NCBI GenBank assembly: GCA_030603445.1
Contig: JAUVXU010000001.1
Location: 107,924-158,712 of the forward strand
DNA: 50,789 nucleotides
Direction: 5' to 3'
Source: Methanomicrobia archaeon
GTDB taxonomy: Archaea; Methanobacteriota_B; Thermococci; Methanofastidiosales; NM3
The position numbers and the translations under genes are program-made. Shown piece after piece: positions 30,755 to 37,367 of the stretch (position 1 is the stretch's first letter; each line of letters starts with the position of its first letter). Below the pieces are notes generated by a model that worked only from the letters and a program-made list of their open reading frames with translations, ran no database searches and had not been told where the DNA came from.

Positions 30755-31339
30755 ATGATTGGAGCAGAAGAGTTTATTGAGGTATTTATACCCTTGTTTA
30801 TAATTATCAACCCGCTGGCGATTTTCCCAAACTTTGAGGAGATTACAAACCAGATGGATAAAAATTTTGTTTCAAAATTATCAACCCGCACAACGATTTC
30901 TGCTTTTCTGTTGCTCGCTTTATTTATTTTGATAGGGCGGCCTTTCCTTAATATTATAGGTGTATCTACCTCCGCATTCATGATAGCATGTGGTGTTCTC
31001 TTACTCTATATATCTTTAGGAATGTTATCAGGAAATCCACCTGTTACTCGCAATGTGGAGTTTGACAAGGATTCTATAGTCCCTATGTCCATACCACTCC
31101 TTGCTGGACCCGGGTCTATTGCAACAGTTATAGTTTTTGAGGAATCATACGGGAAGCCTTTAGTTTTCCTCTCCTTAGTATTATGCGTTGTTATATCAAA
31201 ACTAATGTTGCAGTACTATATTCCAATAAGTAAAATGCTAGGAAAGAACGGTATTAATGCATGGATACGTCTCTCAGCAATGTTTTTTGCCGCGATTTCT
31301 GTAAGTCTTATCACACAGGGAATATTATTAATATGGTGA
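30755..31339 (+). CDS. MarC-family (UPF0056) membrane protein, copy 1
   Basis: 194 residues with six hydrophobic helices of the MarC/UPF0056 family. Key segments are EVFIPLFIIINPLAIFPNF (NP motif near the N-terminus) and PLLAGPGSIATVIVFEESYG, the family hallmark. MarC proteins were once linked to antibiotic resistance but their role is unproven. TTTAAAAAGG at about 30725 is the TATA box, about 30 bases before the ATG. It is followed four bases later by a paralogue. Confidence 0.86.
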   Translation: MIGAEEFIEVFIPLFIIINPLAIFPNFEEITNQMDKNFVSKLSTRTTISAFLLLALFILIGRPFLNIIGVSTSAFMIACGVLLLYISLGMLSGNPPVTRNVEFDKDSIVPMSIPLLAGPGSIATVIVFEESYGKPLVFLSLVLCVVISKLMLQYYIPISKMLGKNGINAWIRLSAMFFAAISVSLITQGILLIW

Positions 31340-31343
31340 TAAT

Positions 31344-31916
31344 ATGCTTGCTGCCATTATGGAAGGTGCCCTTGCACTGTTTGTGATAATGGATCCTATA
31401 GGCAACATACCTATATACCTTCCATTGGTTAAGGAATTTAGTGATAAGGAACGCACCCATACAGTTTATGTTGCATCATTGTTTGCATTATTTTTTCTTC
31501 TACTGTTTCTTTTTGGAGGAAATGTAATATTTTCGTATCTTAACATACAGCTGGAGCACATAATGATTGCAGGAGGAATAGTCCTGGCTCTTTTAGGATT
31601 TGGCATGATGTTCGGAAAGGATTTGAAGTCGCACTATGGGAGCGATATTGCGATAGTTCCTCTAGGCATGCCATTAATGTCTGGACCAGGAGCCATAGCG
31701 ACAGTTCTTCTGCTTGTTGCAAAAAATGGCAGCACCATAACTTTGTTGTCAATAATAGTGGTAATGGTCATACAGGCGCCCATTTATCTTGGGGCAAACA
31801 GCATACTGCGTCTTGCGGGCAAAAATGGCCTTAGGATAATGGGAAACATAGCAGCGCTTGTTGCTGTTTCATTTGGTATAAATATCATAATACTAGGCAT
31901 ATCAGGAATTGCATAA
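31344..31916 (+). CDS. MarC-family (UPF0056) membrane protein, copy 2
   Basis: 190 residues and clearly paralogous to the preceding gene: GALALFVIMDPIGNIPIYL (DP motif instead of NP) and PLMSGPGAIATVLLLVAKNG align with its copy-1 counterparts, and LAGKNGLRIMGNIAALVAVSF with KNGINAWIRLSAMFFAAISVS. The gene begins four bases after the copy-1 stop, so the two are one operon and may form a heteromer. The function is unknown. It ends eight bases before a convergent gene. Confidence 0.86.
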   Translation: MLAAIMEGALALFVIMDPIGNIPIYLPLVKEFSDKERTHTVYVASLFALFFLLLFLFGGNVIFSYLNIQLEHIMIAGGIVLALLGFGMMFGKDLKSHYGSDIAIVPLGMPLMSGPGAIATVLLLVAKNGSTITLLSIIVVMVIQAPIYLGANSILRLAGKNGLRIMGNIAALVAVSFGINIIILGISGIA

Positions 31917-31924
31917 ACGCTTCT

Positions 31925-32257
31925 TTATTTGCGTTTCAATGTCCAGATGACCTCTTTATCTACATCATCACAAACATTTTCTGAAAGTCTTATTGGCAAA
32001 AAAATGTTTACAGTATGCATATGTCCTATACCAGGATATAAAGTGAAACTTAAATCCCCAATAGGCCTGCCATTGAGATATATTGTTCTTTCTGCCCCAC
32101 TGCACATAGAGATGATTCCTTTATCCGTGAGTATGGATATTGCTTTAGAAGAGGCGTTACGAGGATCAAGAAATTCATAAGCAGCATCATGGTTCTCTGC
32201 ATTTAGGTAAAATAACATATCGTTTTGAATGTTATTCTCCTTTTGTTCCATCCCCAT
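31925..32257 (-). CDS. Unknown protein, 110 aa
   Basis: No family recognised. 110 residues, no signal peptide or membrane helix. The first part is hydrophilic (MGMEQKENNIQNDMLFYL). The second has FLDPRNASSKAISILTDKG, then SGAERTIYLNGRPIGDLSF and HTVNIFLPIRLSEN, which looks like a mainly beta globular fold. A TATATATC box on the minus strand about 25 bases upstream fits a leaderless start at ATG 32257. It is convergent with marC copy 2. Composition is like its neighbours. Confidence 0.5.
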   Translation of the reverse strand: MGMEQKENNIQNDMLFYLNAENHDAAYEFLDPRNASSKAISILTDKGIISMCSGAERTIYLNGRPIGDLSFTLYPGIGHMHTVNIFLPIRLSENVCDDVDKEVIWTLKRK

Positions 32258-32340: not shown

Positions 32341-32883
32341 TTAGAATGAATGGAGAAAAACAAGATTTTCTTCAGTTAGGAAATGTACTGTCTTCTTATG
32401 TTTTACACTAAGGCGCACATCATTTGTTTCTATGATTTTCTCGACATCGGAAAACGCGTCAATAAGATTTTCATTCACGACCTCAAATGTTTTTTCTTTT
32501 CCCTTTGATTCTATTGCATTTATTAGGCATATGTCAAGAATTTCAGCTAAGATATTTTCATGTATTTTCTTGGCACTATAACCTCTTTCGCTTAACCTTT
32601 GATAAAGTGTTCGTGGGGGGCATCGCAAGATGATTATCATATCATTGTAGAACATTTCAGCATAATGGGAATCAATCACGGCATCATCATAAGAACCAAT
32701 ATATGCACGCGCCATAGCAACGTCAATAACATCGGTGTCTTTGTCATCGTCTCGTTCTACAATCCAACCCCTCTCGTGGGCAAGGGCAGAGACATCCAGG
32801 TGGGGAATGTTCCTATCATTTGCTATACGTTTGGCTATTGTCGTCTTACCAGTTCCAGGAGTTCCACCAATACATATCCTCAT
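32341..32883 (-). CDS. AK6/Fap7-type adenylate kinase
   Basis: 180-residue P-loop kinase. Walker A is GGTPGTGKTTIAKRIA (residues 7-22). DVSALAHERGW, DSHYAEMFYND and the lid RCPPRTLYQRLSERGYS follow the AK6/Fap7 (hCINAP) pattern, not that of classical adenylate kinase. In archaea and eukaryotes this enzyme has ATPase activity and helps ribosomal S11/uS11 assembly into the small subunit. The ATG overlaps the stop of the HEPN response regulator (ATGA), so the two are translationally coupled. It is the last gene of the histidine-kinase operon, an unusual setting. Confidence 0.85.
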   Translation of the reverse strand: MRICIGGTPGTGKTTIAKRIANDRNIPHLDVSALAHERGWIVERDDDKDTDVIDVAMARAYIGSYDDAVIDSHYAEMFYNDMIIILRCPPRTLYQRLSERGYSAKKIHENILAEILDICLINAIESKGKEKTFEVVNENLIDAFSDVEKIIETNDVRLSVKHKKTVHFLTEENLVFLHSF

Positions 32884-33701
32884 TTTCTTTTTCCACCCAT
32901 GTATTCTCTCATTTCTTTTATGAAGAGTTCGAGTTTGTTGAAATGCAGTTCTGTCATTGGTTTAGGATGGGCAATATCATTTCGTATATGATTGAGCTCT
33001 ATTAGTCTAGCCTTTATCCATCCTATGTTGATAAAGTAGGGTTCGAATACATTTCTCCAGTTGTCAACACCCTCAAATTCATTCTTGTAAAGTATTATTG
33101 GCACGTAAAATGAGAAATCTGAGTAAAATAGGAGTGGCATCGTTATTTTCTTGCGCAGTTGTGCATTTGTTCTGCGTTGTTCGCATTTTGTTTTCACATA
33201 AGGAGGAATGCCGTTATCCCACCATTCGTTCCCATAATACTTATTAAGTGTTTTTTGTAGGAAAATGTTAAACTCTTCTTCAAAGGAGGATAGCAGTTCA
33301 TACGCTGCAGCATTGCTGTGGCTCTTCTTCTTTTTATCTTGTTTTGATAGTATGTTTTTGACAGCTGTTACGACCTCGTCTTTGCGCAACGGCTTGTTTA
33401 TAAGGTAGTCTTCAGCCCCGCTTCGCAACGTCTGAACAGCAGTTTCTTCGCTTCCATATGCAGTAAGCACTACTATTGGAATATCGGGGTCGTGTTCCTT
33501 GACTCTTTTTAATACCTCAAGGCCACTGATCTTTGGAAGCATTAAATCCAAGAGTATGAGGTCTGGTCTTTCTGAGAATGCCTTCTCCAAGGCTTCTTCC
33601 CCGTCTTGGGCGGTGATAATATCATAGTCTTCTCCAGCAAGAAATGCTTTAAGCAGTTTGATATTATCTGGCGTGTCATCAACTATGAGTATCTTTTTCA
33701 T
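32880..33701 (-). CDS. Response regulator with C-terminal HEPN-like (Swt1-type) output domain
   Basis: 273 residues from ATG 33701, with AGGAGGAG eight bases upstream. Residues 1-118 form a receiver domain: MKKILIVDDTPD, phosphoacceptor Asp52 in LILLDLMLPK, VVLTAYGSEE and NKPLRKDE. A basic linker (about 120-130) leads to a helical domain with NEWWDNGIPPYVKTKCEQRR, DFSFYVPIILYKNEF and finally IRNDIAHPKPMTELHF. There R240 and H245 make the R-x4-H motif of HEPN RNases, in the RNxxAH form of Swt1-type HEPN. No HTH is present. The gene overlaps the kinase gene by 23 bases and AK6 by 4. The receiver is certain; the HEPN call is strong pattern matching; RNase activity is inference. Confidence 0.82.
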   Translation of the reverse strand: MKKILIVDDTPDNIKLLKAFLAGEDYDIITAQDGEEALEKAFSERPDLILLDLMLPKISGLEVLKRVKEHDPDIPIVVLTAYGSEETAVQTLRSGAEDYLINKPLRKDEVVTAVKNILSKQDKKKKSHSNAAAYELLSSFEEEFNIFLQKTLNKYYGNEWWDNGIPPYVKTKCEQRRTNAQLRKKITMPLLFYSDFSFYVPIILYKNEFEGVDNWRNVFEPYFINIGWIKARLIELNHIRNDIAHPKPMTELHFNKLELFIKEMREYMGGKRK

Positions 33702-35682
33702 TATTTGTCTCCTCCTTTTGAGAAATGGGAAGCGTAAATACGAATTTGGACCATTCATTCATTTTGCTTTCTACCCATATCTTTCCACCAAGCATTTCAA
33801 CGTACTTCTTGGTGATAGCAAGCCCAAGCCCTGTTCCTTCAAAGTCCCGTGTATCTGTTCCATCTATTTGACGGAATTCGTCAAAGATGACTTCAAAGTC
33901 CTTTTTATTTATCCCGATCCCTGTATCAGAAACTTCTATTTTCAAATAATCTTTATTGTCATCATAATATGATACTGTTGTTTTAACTAGTCCACCTTCT
34001 TTATTAAATTTGATGGCGTTTGTAAGAAGATTTATCAATATTTGGCGTAATTTGGTCTTATCTACTTTTATTTCTGGAATTATATCACTTTCAATTACCA
34101 TAGTAATGTTTCTGTCTTTGGCAATAGGCGTCATAAGTTTGTATACTCTTCTAATGAGTTCATCTAACTTCACTTTCTGATACACTACTTCCATCTTGTT
34201 TGCCTCTATCTTGGAGAGATCAAGCATATCATTTATCAATTGAAGAAGATTTTCGCTGTTTTTTAGAATGGTCTGAAGGTAATCTTGCTGTTCGTCAGTA
34301 AGATTTTCTTCGTCTAGAAGCACATCACTAAAACCTATAATGGCGTTGAGCGGTGTGCGTAGTTCGTGGGATATGTTTGATACGAACTGCGATTTAAGCC
34401 TAGATGCTTCCTTTGTTTGCAAGTTGGCCTCACGTAGTTCTTGAACGAGTGCATTTAGGCGTTCATTTGCTAATTGTAGCCTTCTGGTACGTTCTTTTAC
34501 CTTATCTTCTAATATAGTATAGGAACCCTGTAATTCTTTTCCCATCTCGTTGAAAGATCTTGCCAAAAATCCAAGCTCATCATCCGAGGGTATGTTTATT
34601 TGATAACTCAAATCTTTCTTTGCAAGTTTCCTCGTCCCACGCACAAGTTCGCGTAGCGGCCTAGTTATGGTCTGTGTTACCATAATGGCGGCGATAATAG
34701 ATACAAAGATGGCAACGACTATAAGTAGTATAAATATATTGGTGAATGATTCAACATTGGAAAATACCACATCTCTTGGTATTACCTCAACAAGAACAAG
34801 GAATTCGTCTTTATTATTTGGATCAATGAATACTGGGGTGTATGTGATAATCCAATTTTTTTGATCTGTTAGTGTCCCAGATTCACCGGATATGATATTT
34901 TTATCTCCAGATAATACAAATGTGGCTATCTCCACTATTTCACCAGTTTTTATGTCTTCTCCTACTCTATGGGCGAGATATACGTTTGTATTTGAGATTA
35001 AAAACAGAGAAGATCGCTTCTTTGGTGTGTCATTCAAATCAAATGAATATTTAACTGGATTTAAGAAGAATTCAGCTGACATAGTGGTCATGATTATTCC
35101 TCTATTGTTTCCAAGTGTATCAAATACAGGGGTGGCATAGGTTACCAGTGTTGTTTTTGATGTGGGAGAAGTTGATGATACAGTAATGTAGCTTTGATCA
35201 TTCTCGAGCTTCATAGTTTCAAGGAAGTACTGTTGCGATGCAACGTTTGTAAGTTCATCATAAGGTTTATTAAAAAATGATAATCCGTCCCCCTCGATAC
35301 ATATAATTTCGTTACCATTCGCATCTATAAAGGCAATTTTTTCATATATCTCTCTGCTTTCACAAAATATGAGAAAATGTTCCTGGAGTAGTTTGCGCCA
35401 TCTTTCTATCTCTGACGTACTGTGTGTGGCCTTTGCAAAAAAATAATCTCTTATGGCCGGACTTTTCGAAAGAAATATCACGTCGCTTTCATTATAATTT
35501 ATAAAGTCATATATCTTCTCTGCCGACGAAAAAAGATCAAATTGAGTATTCTCAAGTGTTATTGCTTCAAATGACTGCGTTGCAAGATTTATGGAATAAA
35601 ATCCTGCAATTGTAATTGGTATAACAGATATAAGGAGGAATGTGATGATTAGTTTATGCGAAATACGAGAAAATATGCGCAT
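33679..35682 (-). CDS. Membrane histidine kinase (CACHE-like sensor, HAMP, HisKA, HATPase)
   Basis: 667 residues. TM1 about 11-33 and TM2 about 317-339 bracket an extracellular double-CACHE-like sensor (IAFIDANGNEIICIEGDG, YITVSSTSPTSKTTLVTYA). Then come HAMP (about 340-392, TRPLRELVRGTRKLAKKDL), a coiled coil, HisKA with SNISHELRTPLNAIIGFSD (phospho-His439), and HATPase with LTNAIKFNKEGG, VSDTGIGINKKDFE and GTGLGLAI. It senses an unknown small ligand outside the cell and phosphorylates the overlapping HEPN response regulator. It heads the operon. The bacterial-style architecture may have been acquired by transfer, as often in archaeal two-component systems. Confidence 0.95.
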   Translation of the reverse strand: MRIFSRISHKLIITFLLISVIPITIAGFYSINLATQSFEAITLENTQFDLFSSAEKIYDFINYNESDVIFLSKSPAIRDYFFAKATHSTSEIERWRKLLQEHFLIFCESREIYEKIAFIDANGNEIICIEGDGLSFFNKPYDELTNVASQQYFLETMKLENDQSYITVSSTSPTSKTTLVTYATPVFDTLGNNRGIIMTTMSAEFFLNPVKYSFDLNDTPKKRSSLFLISNTNVYLAHRVGEDIKTGEIVEIATFVLSGDKNIISGESGTLTDQKNWIITYTPVFIDPNNKDEFLVLVEVIPRDVVFSNVESFTNIFILLIVVAIFVSIIAAIMVTQTITRPLRELVRGTRKLAKKDLSYQINIPSDDELGFLARSFNEMGKELQGSYTILEDKVKERTRRLQLANERLNALVQELREANLQTKEASRLKSQFVSNISHELRTPLNAIIGFSDVLLDEENLTDEQQDYLQTILKNSENLLQLINDMLDLSKIEANKMEVVYQKVKLDELIRRVYKLMTPIAKDRNITMVIESDIIPEIKVDKTKLRQILINLLTNAIKFNKEGGLVKTTVSYYDDNKDYLKIEVSDTGIGINKKDFEVIFDEFRQIDGTDTRDFEGTGLGLAITKKYVEMLGGKIWVESKMNEWSKFVFTLPISQKEETNNEKDTHS

Positions 35683-35804
35683 TGATTCACAAAGTGATTT
35701 TTTTATATTAAATCTTTCGGTATCGTGGGCTTGAATACAAATTTTCTATTTTTTTTAAAAAGAGGTAGGCAATATTTTATATGTTTAGACAGAATTTTTT
35801 ACAC

Positions 35805-36215
35805 ATGCATCTCCTGTTGCTTGCGTGCTCACAAAAGAAAGTGAATACAAAAGATGCGCTTCCGGCAATTGAACTTTATGATGGTCCGGCATACAGGATT
35901 GTTAGAAAGATGGGAAGGGAAGGTAAAATTCCAAACTATTTAGATATTTATATTGTTTCTGGCAAGTATGGCCTTATTCCTTCTTGGCAGAAAATAAATA
36001 CTTATGATCAGAGATTGACATATGATATCATCGTTAAGACTGGTGCACACGCAAAACTTAGGGAACTGCTCTATTTGCCCTATCAACAGGTGTTGGCGAA
36101 TATGGGAAAAGAGTATTTGTCTTATTTTGAGGATATTTTGGGTGGAGCTATTTTAGTAAAAGGAAGAATTGGGGAAAAAAATTCCCTAATGAAAAAATGG
36201 CTTTTGCAACTTTGA
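35805..36215 (+). CDS. DUF6884-like protein
   Basis: 136 residues from ATG 35805. It starts MHLLLLACSQKKVNTKDALP, then AIELYDGPAYRIVRK and IYIVSGKYGLIPSWQKI. A 'xxCSxKK' start, the LYxGxxxR segment and a 'xSGKYGLI' strand are the pattern of DUF6884 and distantly of YaaA-like proteins; activity unknown. ATATTTTATATG about 30 bases upstream is the TATA box, so the in-frame ATG at 35781 is rejected as lying in the promoter. It is divergent from the histidine kinase operon and ends one base before the secreted protein gene. Confidence 0.65.
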   Translation: MHLLLLACSQKKVNTKDALPAIELYDGPAYRIVRKMGREGKIPNYLDIYIVSGKYGLIPSWQKINTYDQRLTYDIIVKTGAHAKLRELLYLPYQQVLANMGKEYLSYFEDILGGAILVKGRIGEKNSLMKKWLLQL

Positions 36216-37367
36216 TTAGTTTTCGTCGGTGCCATGCTCTCGTTCTTCAAGCTCTTCTTGGTAGAGATCAAGAACCTCCACCATGGCTTTGATAGCTATA
36301 CCTGGGCATGATGAGCATCCAAAAAGCGTGCCAATTATTGCTCCTGCGGCTATGCTCCCATACAAGAACATGAGGACCTCCTCGTCATCGTGTAGGTTAA
36401 TCCCACTACTACCGATGAGGGGATCTAACGGATCGTGATCTGCCATATCACCTACACCGTCATTATCAGTATCGCGAGAACATGGATCATATCCAAGGAG
36501 AATTTCCTGATAATCTGATATGCCGTCCCTATCAGTGTCTTGTAGGTACATATTTGTACCAAGCCTTTTTTCATCCTTATCAGATAGGCCGTCCCAATCT
36601 GTGTCATTATCTTCTGTGTAGAATGGGTTATCTGTCAGTGTTTCTCCCGGATTAGGGGGTTTTGTTTCTGGGGGCATGTTATCTGTTGGTTTATTTTCTA
36701 TAGGGGGAGTGATACCAACAGGAGGCGCAATAAGGAGGCCATAAATATTATCCGCTGCACGGGTTTTTGGATTTTTCTTAAAATAATTGTACTGTTCCAA
36801 AAGATAAGTTTCGTATTCTCTTATTGTAGAATGAGCTCCAAACTGCAACAGTTGTTCCTTCTTGTAGAGAGAACTTGCGTAATCTATTAGGAAAGGCACC
36901 TCGTTATTTAGGTATGTTTCTATAGTTCTTAACTGTTCGTTAAGTGTTCTTCCTTTTGGGAACATGTCAAGTATTATAGGCTGGCTAACCATATCGTAAT
37001 TTGCGTTATTTAGGGCTTTTTGCATAATCGAGTCAAAGAGTTTCATGGCATCTTTATCGTTTGCGTACACGAAAAGCGCTGTGATGCTTGCATTCAACTT
37101 GGCACTTGCAATTATCGTTTCCTCAATAAGTACACGCCTTTTATGCAGTGGCATATACTTTGACGTGTCCATGGCTTCCTTATATAGAGTTACATACGAA
37201 TTTGCATCCTGTGTGTAGGCATTAAATGCAGTGAGGACCTGTTTTGGGTCTTTTGAATTGCGTGGAGGAGGAGCAATTCCTCCTCTTGGACGAGCAAGAA
37301 CAGGTTCGCAAAACGATGCACAAAGGAGCATGAACAATATAATTATTCCAATTTTTTTGTTTCTCAT
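36216..37367 (-). CDS. Secreted, membrane-anchored protein with calcium-binding thrombospondin type 3 repeats
   Basis: 383 residues. Signal peptide about 1-25 (IGIIILFMLLCASFCEPVLA). A helical domain to about 210 has no recognisable family. A Pro-rich linker (residues about 215-245) is followed by TSP type 3-like Ca2+ repeats, DTDWDGLSDKDE, DTDRDGISDYQE and DTDNDGVGDMADHDPLD. A hydrophobic Cys-containing segment (AAGAIIGTLFGCSSCPG) and an acidic tail end the protein. It probably sits at the cell surface with Ca2+-rigidified stalk repeats. Its stop is adjacent to the convergent DUF6884-like gene. Function unknown. Confidence 0.75.
   Translation of the reverse strand: MRNKKIGIIILFMLLCASFCEPVLARPRGGIAPPPRNSKDPKQVLTAFNAYTQDANSYVTLYKEAMDTSKYMPLHKRRVLIEETIIASAKLNASITALFVYANDKDAMKLFDSIMQKALNNANYDMVSQPIILDMFPKGRTLNEQLRTIETYLNNEVPFLIDYASSLYKKEQLLQFGAHSTIREYETYLLEQYNYFKKNPKTRAADNIYGLLIAPPVGITPPIENKPTDNMPPETKPPNPGETLTDNPFYTEDNDTDWDGLSDKDEKRLGTNMYLQDTDRDGISDYQEILLGYDPCSRDTDNDGVGDMADHDPLDPLIGSSGINLHDDEEVLMFLYGSIAAGAIIGTLFGCSSCPGIAIKAMVEVLDLYQEELEEREHGTDEN

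Follow-up and report, generated by a model that had tools for sequence, protein, structure and literature searches.

Ire1 and RNase L carry KEN domains of the HEPN superfamily, in which a membrane or ligand signal switches the RNase by dimerisation. The KEN domain of these proteins is governed by a kinase-like domain within the same protein. Two-component systems can also direct their output to RNA instead of DNA, as found for ANTAR regulators such as EutV (PMC3369931), which bind terminator hairpins without cutting them and are not HEPN proteins. The main text of a 2018 census of archaeal response regulators (Galperin et al. 2018; PMC5847659) describes most of them as lacking a DNA-binding output and their mode of action as an open question. 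The outputs given in that text include HalOD, MetOD, NitrOD, REC-KaiC, and REC-glycosyltransferase, and its output table contains no HEPN domain. Swt1-like HEPN domains (PF18731) belong to the Abi2/Swt1 clade of the 2013 HEPN survey (Anantharaman et al. 2013; PMC3710099). According to the main text of that survey their partners include PIN, DUF499/AAA, TM helices, transglutaminase, and REase, and a receiver with a cognate histidine kinase is not among them; a receiver is mentioned there only for another protein, one that has a TM domain in common with a HEPN family.

Here we analyzed a 50,789-nucleotide stretch of DNA, referred to as the window, from an archaeal genome of 1.62 Mb. The order to which this genome belongs consists of Methanofastidiosum and its relatives and is represented by 21 genomes. 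The window encodes a sensor histidine kinase next to a response regulator in which a receiver (REC) domain is fused to a Swt1-like HEPN domain. Like the lineage-specific and enzymatic-output regulators of archaea (PMC5847659), this protein joins REC to an output domain confined to one archaeal lineage, while its predicted output is RNA cleavage. It would share with ANTAR regulators an output on RNA and with the KEN proteins a signal-switched HEPN-type RNase, but the signal would arrive by phospho-relay to a receiver. A REC-HEPN fusion is undescribed in the main texts of the 2013 HEPN survey (PMC3710099) and the 2018 archaeal census (PMC5847659), and the term 'REC-HEPN' was not found in the literature searched. 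The protein is a two-component regulator with a new output that is probably ribonucleolytic.

Gene organization and domain content of the locus

The locus consists of three genes on the minus strand, in the order histidine kinase, response regulator, and AK6/Fap7 (Table 1). The kinase and regulator genes overlap by 23 bp and the regulator and AK6 genes by 4 bp (ATGA). By eye, the ATG of the regulator is preceded directly by GGAGGAG; an alternative longer frame of 292 amino acids opens at position 33758. The BRE/TATA-like stretch found shortly before the kinase ATG suggests a leaderless three-gene transcript. A sigma-70 promoter scan is uninformative for an archaeal host.

Several neighboring genes recur elsewhere. 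A DUF6884 gene (35781-36215) diverges from the kinase gene and adjoins a gene for an exported protein with TSP3 repeats (36216-37367), and these two genes are neighbors in G004 (L026) too. A tandem pair of MarC-family membrane protein genes (30755-31916) is also paired at L026, and a 110-amino-acid ORF without a Pfam match (31925-32257) occupies the same place in G001 (L028; 38% identity).

Table 1. Positions of the genes, domains, and motifs of the locus within the window
Feature	Position	Strand	Extent	Basis or remark
Sensor histidine kinase	33679..35682	-	667 aa	Pfam, hydropathy, orthologue comparison
dCache_1-like sensor domain	34834..35529	-	kinase residues 52-283	Pfam E=6.6e-10, 39.4 bits; curated cut-off of 45 not reached
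Phospho-accepting histidine H439	34366..34368	-		SHELRT H-box, HExxT motif
REC-HEPN response regulator	32880..33701	-	273 aa from ATG	
REC domain	33339..33701	-	residues 1-121	Pfam PF00072, E=1.7e-30
Phospho-acceptor Asp52	33546..33548	-		invariant
Swt1-like HEPN output domain (predicted)	32898..33314	-	residues about 130-268	PF18731, AF2 model
RNDIAH (HEPN Rx4H motif, R240 and H245)	32967..32984	-		alignments
AK6/Fap7-type kinase	32341..32883	-	180 aa	protein P0003
BRE/TATA-like candidate archaeal promoter, CCGAAAGATTTAATATAAAA	35701..35720	-	~20-38 nt upstream of kinase ATG	by eye

We found that the kinase contains, from its N-terminus, a TM segment (about residues 10-30), a dCache-like extracytoplasmic domain, a second TM segment (about residues 309-335), and HAMP, HisKA, and HATPase_c domains. 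The TM segments were placed by hydropathy, with two hydrophobic stretches bracketing the sensor, and HAMP, HisKA, and HATPase_c are clear Pfam matches. The H-box (SHELRT), N-box, and G-boxes are kept across 14 kinase orthologues. Orthologues in other families retain 24-30% identity in the sensor part compared to approximately 50% in the kinase part, which suggests that the signal may differ from family to family. An HExxT motif such as the one found here usually marks kinases able to dephosphorylate their partner as well.

The active-site residues of the receiver (D8, D9, D52, T80, and K103) are invariant among 12 aligned sequences, and a Pfam scan of the regulator matched no HTH family. An earlier note on this DNA, made from the letters alone, had described three overlapping genes, a membrane CACHE-like sensor kinase, a normal receiver with Asp52 and no HTH, and a C-terminal domain resembling Swt1-type HEPN with R240-x4-H245. 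Each of these descriptions agrees with our data, with the dCache_1 match lying under its curated cut-off.

The product of the third gene, P0003, contains the P-loop GTPGTGKT and resembles solved chains of archaeal Fap7 (4cvn, E=1.6e-20, aligned over P0003 residues 1-139) and human AK6 (3iij, E=1e-13). Its C-terminus has diverged. Since P0003 scores 110 bits against NCBIfam PRK03839 and does not reach the equivalog cut-off of 152, we filed it as AK6/Fap7-like.

Conservation and predicted fold of the HEPN domain

HEPN_Swt1 (PF18731) matched the regulator with E=2.9e-7 and 31.2 bits, above the curated cut-off of 27.5, and the HEPN domain alone reached 33.0 bits. All 14 aligned members of the order match PF18731 at E<0.01; two Theionarchaea members score 20-21 bits, which is under the cut-off. 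R240 and H245, within the motif IRNDIAH, are invariant in the 15 order relatives whose contig reaches the motif (15/15), which fits the HEPN pattern Rx4-6H with a polar residue after R. That polar residue, N241, is likewise invariant within the order. Since the domain and its motif were found again in 16 related genomes and dN/dS between close pairs is 0.01-0.07 for both the REC and HEPN domains, the regulator is not a chance ORF. The kinase-regulator pair is under strong purifying selection.

In order to separate motif conservation from close kinship, we compared the domain with 30 distant Swt1-HEPN sequences, which came from plasmids and other archaea and, in one case, from an unrelated fusion within the order. 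Two proteins were fetched twice (L075/L119 and L077/L137), leaving 28 distinct sequences. Mean column identity to the HEPN domain of the window is 26% across this set. Both R and H are retained by 28 of the 30 sequences (26 of the 28 distinct ones), and 24 of the 30 have N after R. In distant Swt1-HEPN relatives R and H rank with the best-conserved positions of the domain. The exceptions, L131 and L135, form a separate TIR-like pair.

HEPN domains are described in the main text of the 2013 survey as two alpha-hairpins with an insert between helices 2 and 3 and a motif that closes helix 3 (PMC3710099). The AlphaFold2 model of the HEPN domain, built with 14 sequences, has a pLDDT of 90.9 and a pTM of 0.85. 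It comprises a long helix (domain residues 5-39), a second helix (42-57), an insert with short helices, and two further helices (101-118 and 126-143), with R115 and H120 of the domain (R240 and H245) lying where the third core helix gives way to the following loop. By helix order, which was compared without superposition, the predicted model follows the canonical HEPN arrangement. The likeness to published Swt1-like HEPN domains (PMC3710099, main text) comprises a Pfam score above the cut-off, the Rx4H motif, helix order, and the insert.

A Foldseek search of the domain model against the PDB returned nothing significant (best E=2.5), and HEPN was absent from the matches. A profile search of PDB sequences likewise found no Swt1-like HEPN, returning weak S2 and THO matches alone, which we read as chance. 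Because no Swt1-like HEPN was found in the PDB and a positive control was lacking, we regard the Foldseek result as uninformative and not as a refutation; the HEPN fold is assigned from family models, helix topology, and the motif. The full-length REC-HEPN model has a pTM of 0.55, so the interface between REC and HEPN is not readable from it.

Distribution within and beyond the order

We found the REC-HEPN regulator in 15 of the 21 genomes of the order, spread over families f1 (the family of the window), f2, and f4. A kinase orthologue lies beside it in every one of these 15 loci across the three families. In G015 the kinase sits at a contig edge and the regulator would fall beyond that edge, and in G003, G010, and G011 neither kinase nor REC-HEPN was found. 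One of these, G010 (f4), encodes a DUF262-like protein with an internal Swt1-like HEPN domain (L069:563-3274). In f3 (Theionarchaea), the HEPN domain of the order is carried on a different N-terminal half and REC is absent; no full-length kinase orthologue was found in this family. In these proteins (L053:5131-6414 and L054:5116-6411) the N-terminal half spans approximately 285 amino acids without a Pfam match and RNDLAH is intact in the HEPN domain, a case of a swapped input half in a sister family. In the HEPN domain tree the domains of the order fall together on a moderately supported uniting branch (86/72), and f1, f2, f3, and f4 each form a group.

We also asked whether the fusion extends to other archaea, using a PF18731 search of 396 genomes that reached beyond the phylum and an A3 profile search of 918 genomes from three other archaeal phyla, two sets that partially overlap. 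None of the loci examined from these more than 900 other archaeal genomes, among which eleven of the weakest places of one A3 search were not included, contained REC in the same frame as HEPN. The HEPN domain of other archaea is joined to many different partners. Plasmid relatives amounted to 16 records, and REC-HEPN was present in none of the four examined; phage and viral collections yielded no relatives. The fusion may exist in bacterial chromosomes, which lie outside the searched set.

Some of the other architectures merit description. L136:1456-3006 combines an N-terminal archaeal Swt1-like HEPN domain (R-x5-H) with a C-terminal stretch resembling a Ras/Rab-like small GTPase and is possibly a GTPase-linked HEPN protein. 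L131 and L135 are long proteins with TSP3-like repeats and a TIR-like C-terminal end; their HEPN motif is decayed, with K in place of R and E or Q in place of H, and the domain is apparently retained as a non-catalytic part. In L074:1477-3384 and L072:1411-3378 a PglZ-like gene is followed directly by the gene for a BrxL-like AAA protein that has a Swt1-like HEPN domain at its N-terminus, a locus that is BREX-related in appearance.

Proposed mechanism and alternative readings

We favor, with some confidence, the reading that the pair is a two-component system with a phosphorylation-gated ribonuclease output. An extracytoplasmic ligand would be sensed through the dCache-like domain of the membrane kinase, which would autophosphorylate on H439 and hand the phosphate on to D52 in the receiver. 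With D52 phosphorylated, the attached Swt1-like HEPN domains would be rearranged, most likely because a HEPN dimer is either driven together or released, and this would switch metal-independent RNA cleavage through R240 and H245 on or off. The HExxT motif suggests that the kinase could reset the switch by removing the phosphate. In this way a signal would bring about RNA decay or growth arrest with no need for new transcription. The relay steps up to D52 rest on intact conserved residues, and for the later steps we infer from the biochemistry of other HEPN proteins (RNase L, PrrC, and RloC; PMC3710099). Whether an outside signal switching the ribonuclease directly through the receiver amounts to an undescribed stress or dormancy switch across the Methanofastidiosum order is a proposal on which we are evenly divided.

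An undescribed, sensor-controlled RNase module was also the proposal of the earlier note. Its kinase-regulator core is supported by family models, predicted fold, motif, and gene order. The earlier note had named a fold unlike HEPN, loss of the R and H residues among orthologues, and a gene order found nowhere else as observations that would speak against it. What we found for the kinase-regulator pair is a predicted HEPN helix order with the motif ending helix 3, invariant R and H, and adjacent genes in all loci that carry the regulator.

The main rival is that the HEPN domain has no catalytic role and serves in RNA binding or dimerisation, with phosphorylation controlling its binding to a transcript or partner protein in an ANTAR-like manner. 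According to the main text of the 2013 survey, there are HEPN domains that bind RNA but do not cleave it, and binding-only families include a subset of MtlR and eukaryotic Swt1, whose HEPN domain is thought inactive (PMC3710099). The main text of the 2018 census also concludes that archaeal regulators act mainly by protein-protein contacts (PMC5847659). However, the survey text states that the motif is usually lost in such domains (PMC3710099), whereas here R240, N241, and H245 do not vary within the order and distant relatives also show high conservation of R and H, and we consider a binding-only domain unlikely.

It is considerably less probable that the pair is an anti-virus or abortive-infection device in which infection is detected by the kinase and the cell is then killed or arrested by the HEPN domain. 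The HEPN domain does match the PADLOC candidate family PDC-M34B (E=3.5e-17, and 1e-17 for the B profile), the HEPN-like component of a candidate defence system that also has a partner gene and that is not named in the literature searched, and other archaeal Swt1-HEPN domains reside on apparent defence proteins (PglZ-linked AAA, DUF262-like, and TIR-like fusions). Yet the pair is a single chromosomal copy, is conserved in three families that the domain tree keeps apart as groups, and is under strong purifying selection, and its extracytoplasmic cache-like sensor is better suited to small-molecule sensing. With a neighborhood free of defence genes and relatives absent from phage and viral collections, we rejected a defence island.

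The least probable of the three rival readings, and to us a hardly tenable one, gives the module a role in controlling ribosome assembly, in which AK6/Fap7 is the functional partner of the HEPN regulator. Four f1 genomes have the pair, and in every one of them AK6 adjoins it and overlaps the regulator by 4 bp; the copy at this locus is the only AK6 found in the genome of the window. Against this, AK6 lies elsewhere in f2, f3, and f4. The pair of f2 and f4 is without an adjacent AK6, which is found on a different contig or at a distance of tens of kb (G012 C1: 109796 vs 173709), and the gene after the regulator outside f1 is unrelated to AK6. Within f1, AK6 also evolves faster than the kinase-regulator pair (47-51% vs 66-77% identity). 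Since AK6 is apart from the pair in other families, it is not part of the core of the module, and gene order rules out the link as a general feature beyond f1. The coupling to AK6 put forward in the earlier note thus survives as an overlap in four f1 genomes, its ribosome-assembly part being weak; AK6 is an operon partner at the family level, and a functional link within f1 is possible. A type II toxin-antitoxin system was rejected, with no antitoxin family in the immediate neighbors scanned and a distribution that is conserved and family-grouped across the order.

Under the preferred reading of a phosphorylation-gated ribonuclease, the output domain described here has a predicted enzymatic activity that is testable. 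If RNA is cut upon phosphorylation, this system would join the two-component phospho-relay to HEPN-type RNA cleavage, which have so far been known mainly apart. If true, the answer of the cell to its signal would be RNA cleavage and not transcription, and the system would offer a way to approach stress control in an order of archaea that is uncultured.
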